Assembly: GCA_024222295.1 (NCBI GenBank)
Contig: JAAEPF010000024.1
Span: 186,001-250,000 of the forward strand
From: Actinomycetes bacterium
GTDB lineage: Bacteria; Actinomycetota; Acidimicrobiia; Acidimicrobiales; Microtrichaceae
Direction: 5' to 3'
Length of the DNA stretch: 64,000 nucleotides
Shown: piece by piece, positions 3,901 through 4,083 of the stretch
How positions within the stretch are numbered: position 1 is the first letter of the stretch
Layout of the letters: each line of letters starts with the position of its first letter
Notes under the pieces: model-generated
Databases searched by the model: none
What the model was told of the DNA's origin: nothing
What the model saw: only the letters and a program-made list of their open reading frames with translations
Translations under genes and position numbers: made by a program

Positions 3901-3929
3901 TTGCCACCGACCTGATGCGGGCGTACAGT
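3901..3929 (+). promoter_or_regulatory. Predicted leuA promoter
   Basis: TTGCCA at 3901-3906 and TACAGT at 3924-3929 are separated by 17 bases, a good vegetative-sigma promoter. The expected start of transcription (about 3936-3937) coincides with the ATG of the leucine-rich leader peptide, so the leader peptide would be translated from a nearly or fully leaderless transcript, a mode known to be common in actinobacteria. The promoter and start site are predictions. Confidence 0.65.
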
Positions 3930-3936
3930 GGACCCG

Positions 3937-3975
3937 ATGACTCCCCGAGCACTTGCCCTCCTTCTGCTGACCTAG
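3937..3975 (+). CDS. leuA leader peptide, 12 residues, four consecutive Leu codons
   Basis: A small ORF encodes MTPRALALLLLT and then stops at TAG (3973-3975). Five of twelve codons are leucine (CTT, CTC, CTT, CTG, CTG) and four are consecutive, which is the hallmark of a leucine-sensing leader peptide. It sits right after a predicted promoter and right before mutually exclusive RNA structures, 108 bases ahead of the first enzyme of leucine synthesis. Ribosome pausing at these codons when charged leucyl-tRNA is scarce would change folding of the downstream leader. No Shine-Dalgarno sequence precedes the ATG, consistent with leaderless translation. Confidence 0.8.
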   Translation: MTPRALALLLLT

Positions 3976-4022
3976 GCGAGCCCGCTCCTGCGTGCTCGCC
4001 GAACCTCCTGCAAAAGCAGGAG
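3976..4022 (+). promoter_or_regulatory. LEU-type pseudoknot leader element upstream of leuA
   Basis: Directly after the leader-peptide stop codon, GCGAGC (3976-3981) pairs with GCTCGC (3994-3999). The loop of that hairpin contains CTCCTGC (3985-3991), which is perfectly complementary to GCAGGAG (4016-4022) downstream, so a pseudoknot can form. The same downstream strand is also the 3' arm of a perfect hairpin at 4001-4026, so pseudoknot and hairpin exclude each other. A conserved pseudoknot upstream of leuA, called the LEU element, has been described for Actinobacteria; this arrangement matches that description. The regulatory direction (which fold permits expression) is inferred, not seen. 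Confidence 0.75.
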
Positions 4023-4026
4023 GTTC
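4001..4026 (+). terminator. Attenuator hairpin in leuA leader
   Basis: GAACCTCCTGC, a four-base AAAA loop and GCAGGAGGTTC form a perfect 11-bp stem. A T-rich stretch follows (TTCAGTTTT), weaker than a classical U-run. It lies between the leader peptide and leuA and competes with the upstream pseudoknot for GCAGGAG, so it is best read as a conditional terminator or as a structure controlling downstream translation. Confidence 0.7.
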
Positions 4027-4083
4027 TTCAGTTTTCGGACCAAGTTCCGCTCGACCCTCGTATCCGACCCAGGAAGCAATCCG

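Follow-up and report, generated by a model that had tools for sequence, protein, structure and literature searches.

The analyzed window, a stretch of 64,000 nucleotides from a member of the Acidimicrobiia, contains a leuA gene preceded by a leader that can be read as three parts: a leucine-rich ORF, a hairpin that starts on the stop codon of this ORF (P1), and a terminator that sits flush on that hairpin (T) (Table 1). The ORF carries four consecutive Leu codons (positions 3958 to 3969), and T, with a stem of 11 bp and a loop of 4 nt, qualifies at the sequence level as an intrinsic terminator between the leader ORF and leuA. An earlier note on this DNA had described a hairpin adjoining the stop codon and an 11-bp hairpin followed by a T-rich stretch, and both are indeed present. 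The leader stretch folds far better than shuffled sequences (z = −6.3). On both sides of leuA, ORFs on the minus strand resemble by eye cyclic-di-GMP enzymes, one with a GGDEF-type look (2171 to 3769), divergent from the leuA leader, and one of the PAS/GGDEF/EAL type (6464 to 9634).

Table 1. Features of the leuA leader region, in positions of the window
Feature	Position	Strand	Remarks
Promoter-like −35 TTGCCA (3901-3906) and −10 TACAGT (3924-3929)	3901..3929	+	17-nt spacer
Leader ORF, MTPRALALLLLT-stop	3937..3975	+	ATG at 3937; TAG stop at 3973-3975
Hairpin P1, GGCGAGC-c-CGC tcct GCG-t-GCTCGCC	3975..4000	+	Base is the third stop-codon base
Putative intrinsic terminator T, GAACCTCCTGC AAAA GCAGGAGGTTC (4001-4026) and U-rich tail TTCAGTTTTC	4001..4036	+	Gap after P1 = 0
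CTCCTGC, 7-base complement of GCAGGAG (4016-4022)	3985..3991	+	Judged incidental
Shine-Dalgarno-like AGGAAG of leuA	4071..4076	+	Unpaired with Leu codons
leuA, 2-isopropylmalate synthase, TIGR00970/PRK03739 type (putative regulated gene)	4084..5865	+	TIGR00970 749 bits, cut-off 697

The promoter-like pair, which had likewise been pointed out in front of the ATG, is the only such site within 1 kb (0.1 expected) and predicts a transcription start at about position 3936 to 3937, on the leader ATG. Since the −10 element ends 7 nt before the ATG, a leaderless start is plausible, with transcription beginning on or next to the start codon. LeuA was used as the query for upstream regions in the family of the window (28/33 genomes), in the class (93/296 genomes), and in named public genomes, where the best matches were from Microthrixaceae and other Acidimicrobiia. 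Automatic parsing into ORF, P1, and T succeeded for 119 of 148 distinct upstream regions, and 113 of them were distinct, a number that, like all homolog counts given here, overstates independent events because the sequences are related. Several of the unparsed regions lie at contig ends, have leuA behind another gene, or carry another type of leader.

All 113 parsed leaders end in 3 to 5 Leu codons, the parsing itself having demanded at least LL. A −10-like hexamer (TANNNT) stands 6 to 9 nt before an in-frame start in 90/113 leaders, compared to 3/97 for out-of-frame starts, and Shine-Dalgarno-like motifs before the leader start were seen in only 6 of these 90. Start codons are ambiguous in some leaders; with the −10-spaced start taken, most leaders are 10 to 13 codons long. 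CTT makes up 31% of the Leu codons in the leaders versus 8% in the leuA genes (42 loci), a preference that may make the leader more sensitive to the charging of tRNA. Together with the hairpins described below, these data give strong comparative support to the earlier proposal of a putative leucine-responsive leader with a plausibly leaderless Leu-rich peptide and a terminator hairpin.

That P1 and T are upheld by compensatory changes across the Acidimicrobiia is strongly supported. In an alignment of 35 diverse homologs, for which the counted structure was taken partly from predicted folds of its members, 92.5% of the cells of P1 and T are paired, compared to 38 to 49% in slid controls, and none of 500 shuffles reached any of the measures. 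Two-sided changes were found in 15 of the 22 pairs (9/10 in P1 and 6/12 in T). Furthermore, without any alignment, cognate arms pair much better than arms combined across species (z = −27 for P1 and −23 for T). The spacing is equally regular: the third stop-codon base is where P1 begins in 87/113 leaders, P1 follows the last Leu codon, counted from its first base, after 8 nt in 82/113 and after 5 to 10 nt in all, the first Leu codon lies 14 to 17 nt before P1 in 103/113, and the gap between P1 and T is 0 nt in 67/113 and 0 to 3 nt in 104/113. As a control, a flush upstream hairpin was found at 4 of 41 other T-run terminator hairpins in the same fetched loci. The lower stem of P1 is also kept in sequence beyond what pairing needs and is gene specific (GGCGAGC at leuA, GCGCACGC at ilvB), and the P1 loops of leuA leaders often read CACATA (for example, in L128, L171, and L175); contacts with a protein or with the polymerase could account for both.

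At E ≤ 1e−3, a covariance model located the element in 167/296 genomes of the class, with one match in the genome of the window itself; the downstream gene was inspected for only part of these matches. The element precedes a second leuA type (TIGR00973) where the leuA type of the window is absent, and further copies lie before leuS (TIGR00396; L257:100-330 and, on the reverse strand, L260), with leaders ending in RLLRM and RLLLT before the stop codon, and before ilvB (TIGR00118). At ilvB, the layout was found in 24/30 loci, the genome of the window included, with a different P1 sequence, usually GCGCACGC..GCGTGCGC (offset of 1 to 2, spacer of 0 to 5), and the last branched-chain codon lies mostly 7 to 8 nt from P1. 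The leaders there end, for example, in LLVVIT or ILVVVT; the one in the genome of the window reads VRETTELVVGA. In a group of ilvB loci (L255, L256, L266, and L272 to L301), a near-flush terminator follows a conserved P1 of the form TAGCGCACGCC..GCGTGCGC. Hence, it is the layout and not one sequence that is common, and the codons fit the pathway: LLL(L) at both leuA types, Leu at leuS, and Leu/Val/Ile at ilvB. Leader codons suited to the amino acid of the regulated gene are what a ribosome-mediated attenuator requires. In trpE leaders of the order, the layout with at least two Trp codons was not found, and therefore, the design was found only at branched-chain genes. At the level of sequence, comparison establishes the three parts (ORF, P1, and T), the precise way in which they are arranged, and the match of the codons to the downstream gene. 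The window and ten related loci gave no match to any Rfam family at the gathering score, a weak match to IRES_IGF2 (E = 5) being due to chance, and in the literature that we searched, no paper dealt with leader peptides and attenuation in Acidimicrobiia.

Our data point toward a transcription attenuator that is ribosome mediated and responds to leucine, with P1 in the position of the antiterminator and masked by a ribosome at the stop codon. We give this reading a probability of about 0.6; that the element is an attenuator as such is likely. In our model, transcription would begin at or beside the leader ATG, and a 70S ribosome would translate the leaderless ORF during the synthesis of P1 and T by RNA polymerase. 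If Leu-tRNA is scarce, the ribosome would stall at the Leu codons. Its front edge would then reach the base of P1 or stop shortly before it, and P1 could stand. With leucine plentiful, the ribosome would reach the stop codon within the base of P1 and hold P1 open during the synthesis of T, and T would then stop transcription ahead of leuA. The front edge of a bacterial ribosome lies about 15 to 17 nt from the first base of the P site. From these dimensions and the distances between the Leu codons and P1, it follows that a ribosome on the first Leu codon should leave P1 free and, with P1 starting at the stop codon, that a ribosome on the stop codon should cover the 5′ arm of P1. Readthrough at T would be under the control of leucine.

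Textbook attenuation relies on two folds that compete for common bases. This classical form, in which antiterminator and terminator have bases in common, was looked for in the 113 leaders and not found, and no pair of segments other than those of P1 and T had a strong cognate excess. For an antiterminator made of the 3′ arm of P1 and the 5′ arm of T, the signal is absent. The Leu codons are complementary to the 3′ arm of T in most species (88% of cells, one register), again without cognate excess; this pairing would be much weaker than T and of the wrong sign for leucine control, and we judge it a by-product of CTY codons facing GGAGG. Duplexes of the Leu codons with the Shine-Dalgarno sequence of leuA are weaker when cognate than when not (−6.8 versus −7.3 kcal/mol). 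The earlier note had placed the switch between T (OFF) and a pseudoknot (ON) formed by the loop of P1 and the 3′ arm of T, starting from the exact 7-base complement of CTCCTGC and GCAGGAG. This complement exists in the window and is partly kept in two relatives (L003 and L004). Among the 35 diverse homologs, however, 48.7% of the cells pair compared to 48.2% in shuffled sequences, cognate duplexes are barely better than non-cognate ones (−6.4 versus −6.2 kcal/mol), and covariation of the two segments in relatives, on whose presence the note itself had made its proposal depend, is lacking. Moreover, the bases in question belong to the upper stem of P1: GC at 3990 to 3991 pairs within CGC-tcct-GCG in the window, L004 has a continuous P1 stem of 11 bp (GGCGAGTACGC-gcct-GCGTGCTCGCC), and in both relatives the candidate bases sit in that upper stem. 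The local formation of T with its 4-nt loop would outcompete the pseudoknot as well. We judge the complement to be a local accident of the top of P1 in the lineage of the window. Since neither the pseudoknot nor the stem between Leu codons and Shine-Dalgarno sequence was found, a switch of this kind is refuted as the general mechanism and highly improbable for the element at hand; P1 and T coexist. More room is left for a conventional attenuator whose base-paired antiterminator escaped the tests, by a short exchange at the boundary or by transient or tertiary pairing, but it, too, is unlikely. Such a device is known from ilvBNC of Corynebacterium glutamicum, in which the adjacent antiterminator and terminator hairpins overlap by three bases, GCC (PMC11857589), and in our set, cognate duplexes between the 5′ arms of P1 and T have a slight advantage over non-cognate ones (−6.55 versus −6.04). 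Nevertheless, P1 (−18) and T (−19) are far more stable than these alternative duplexes, neither stem can be extended into the other in 63 of the 67 flush elements, T gaining just 1 bp of P1 in the other 4, and the RNA ahead of the 3′ arm of T folds like shuffled sequence (mean z of 0.09).

Two further explanations do without P1 as an antiterminator set by the ribosome. A trans-acting factor that binds P1 might decide on termination, the peptide being secondary, as has been proposed for LEU elements. The gene-specific conservation of the lower stem of P1 and the CACATA loops would suit such a factor, as would mutations in the leuA leader of Streptomyces coelicolor, which did not fit classical attenuation (Craster 1999, as cited in PMC1262725). 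A protein site, on the other hand, needs neither pathway-matched codons nor a fixed distance from the Leu codons to P1, which makes this explanation improbable. It is also imaginable that P1 is a mere pause hairpin at which the polymerase awaits the ribosome, or that P1 and T together form a stronger, constitutive terminator without leucine control, since a stable hairpin adjoins T and the two may stack coaxially. Gene-matched codons and a fixed distance of 8 nt are not needed for either, and other terminators rarely have such a hairpin (the 4 of 41 given above), so that we consider both quite improbable.

To return to the ribosome-mediated attenuator, P1 and T share no bases, and therefore, a steric route would be the likeliest way for one to act on the other. 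Because base-pair competition was not found, we tentatively propose, as a possibility for the whole class of Acidimicrobiia attenuators (leuA, leuS, and ilvB), that termination may be decided without base-pair exchange, the stop-codon hairpin blocking the flush terminator sterically until the ribosome opens the hairpin. With the helix of P1 flush on the 5′ base of T, no single strand would be available to thread from the RNA exit channel; a standing P1 would leave T unable to close fully, and an opened P1 would provide slack. We infer this opposition from the geometry only, and coaxial stacking of the flush hairpins could just as well favor T. In predicted folds, T is present in 113/113 leaders when a ribosome occupies the Leu codons and in 102/113 when it occupies the stop codon; judged by secondary structure alone, termination would thus be expected in either state. 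If true, a switch made of non-competing hairpins would be very compact and portable, and the constant spacing opens it to direct tests. Such hairpins seem to serve the usual ribosome logic throughout a bacterial class.

Among the closest known systems is the LEU element, which lies upstream of leuA in Actinobacteria and whose defining structures are a pseudoknot and a stem between Leu codons and Shine-Dalgarno sequence (Seliverstov et al. 2005, PMC1262725). Like it, the Acidimicrobiia leader lies upstream of leuA, encodes a peptide with a run of Leu, and has a GCGAG/GCGGG-like core. In most of the Actinomycetes leuA leaders examined, the core of the first helix (CCGCG.CG.GG) begins 8 nt after a Leu codon, directly in 17 loci and in the others after extra flanking pairs are dropped or, where four Leu codons are present, the count starts at the third. 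Given this shared core and distance, P1 is probably the counterpart of one of the helices in the LEU element. The match to the LEU element claimed earlier is partly right: the core of P1 lies at the same 8 nt from the Leu codon, but the pseudoknot and the stem with the Shine-Dalgarno sequence were not found. Furthermore, P1 of the Acidimicrobiia is short looped, sits on the stop codon, and has an intrinsic terminator directly 3′ of it. Since the defining structures were not found, we regard the leader as a terminator-based relative and not as a LEU element. The helix and the Leu-codon distance held in common nevertheless offer a link to this long-puzzling element, mutants of which in Streptomyces did not fit classical attenuation.

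The attenuator of Corynebacterium ilvBNC and the ilvB-II motif resemble the element in their short leader ORF with branched-chain codons, a hairpin adjacent to a terminator, and transcription attenuation (PMC11857589, PMC10272879). They differ in that bases are shared there (GCC, or the P1 loop and the 3′ side of the terminator) and none here, and in that the stop codon forms the base of P1 in the Acidimicrobiia. For ilvB1 of Mycobacterium tuberculosis, reporter data support that the antiterminator stands when the ribosome is stalled and is masked by a ribosome at the stop codon (PMC13236596). The branched-chain codons and the masking would be common to both systems, but antiterminator and terminator of ilvB1 are described as mutually exclusive folds (PMC13236596). 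The leuA leader leuL1 of Streptomyces lividans is leaderless, as the Acidimicrobiia leader is predicted to be, and likewise Leu rich (MRFGLLLLSCRGEGL), but a typical Rho-independent terminator is reported to be lacking there (PMC8079986).

Another type of leuA leader, seen in some Acidimicrobiia, encodes Leu-rich peptides that contain LRL, followed by a GC-rich hairpin (L184, L185, L192, L086, and L109). It was also seen in Alphaproteobacteria (L077, L102, and L108) and possibly moved together with leuA.
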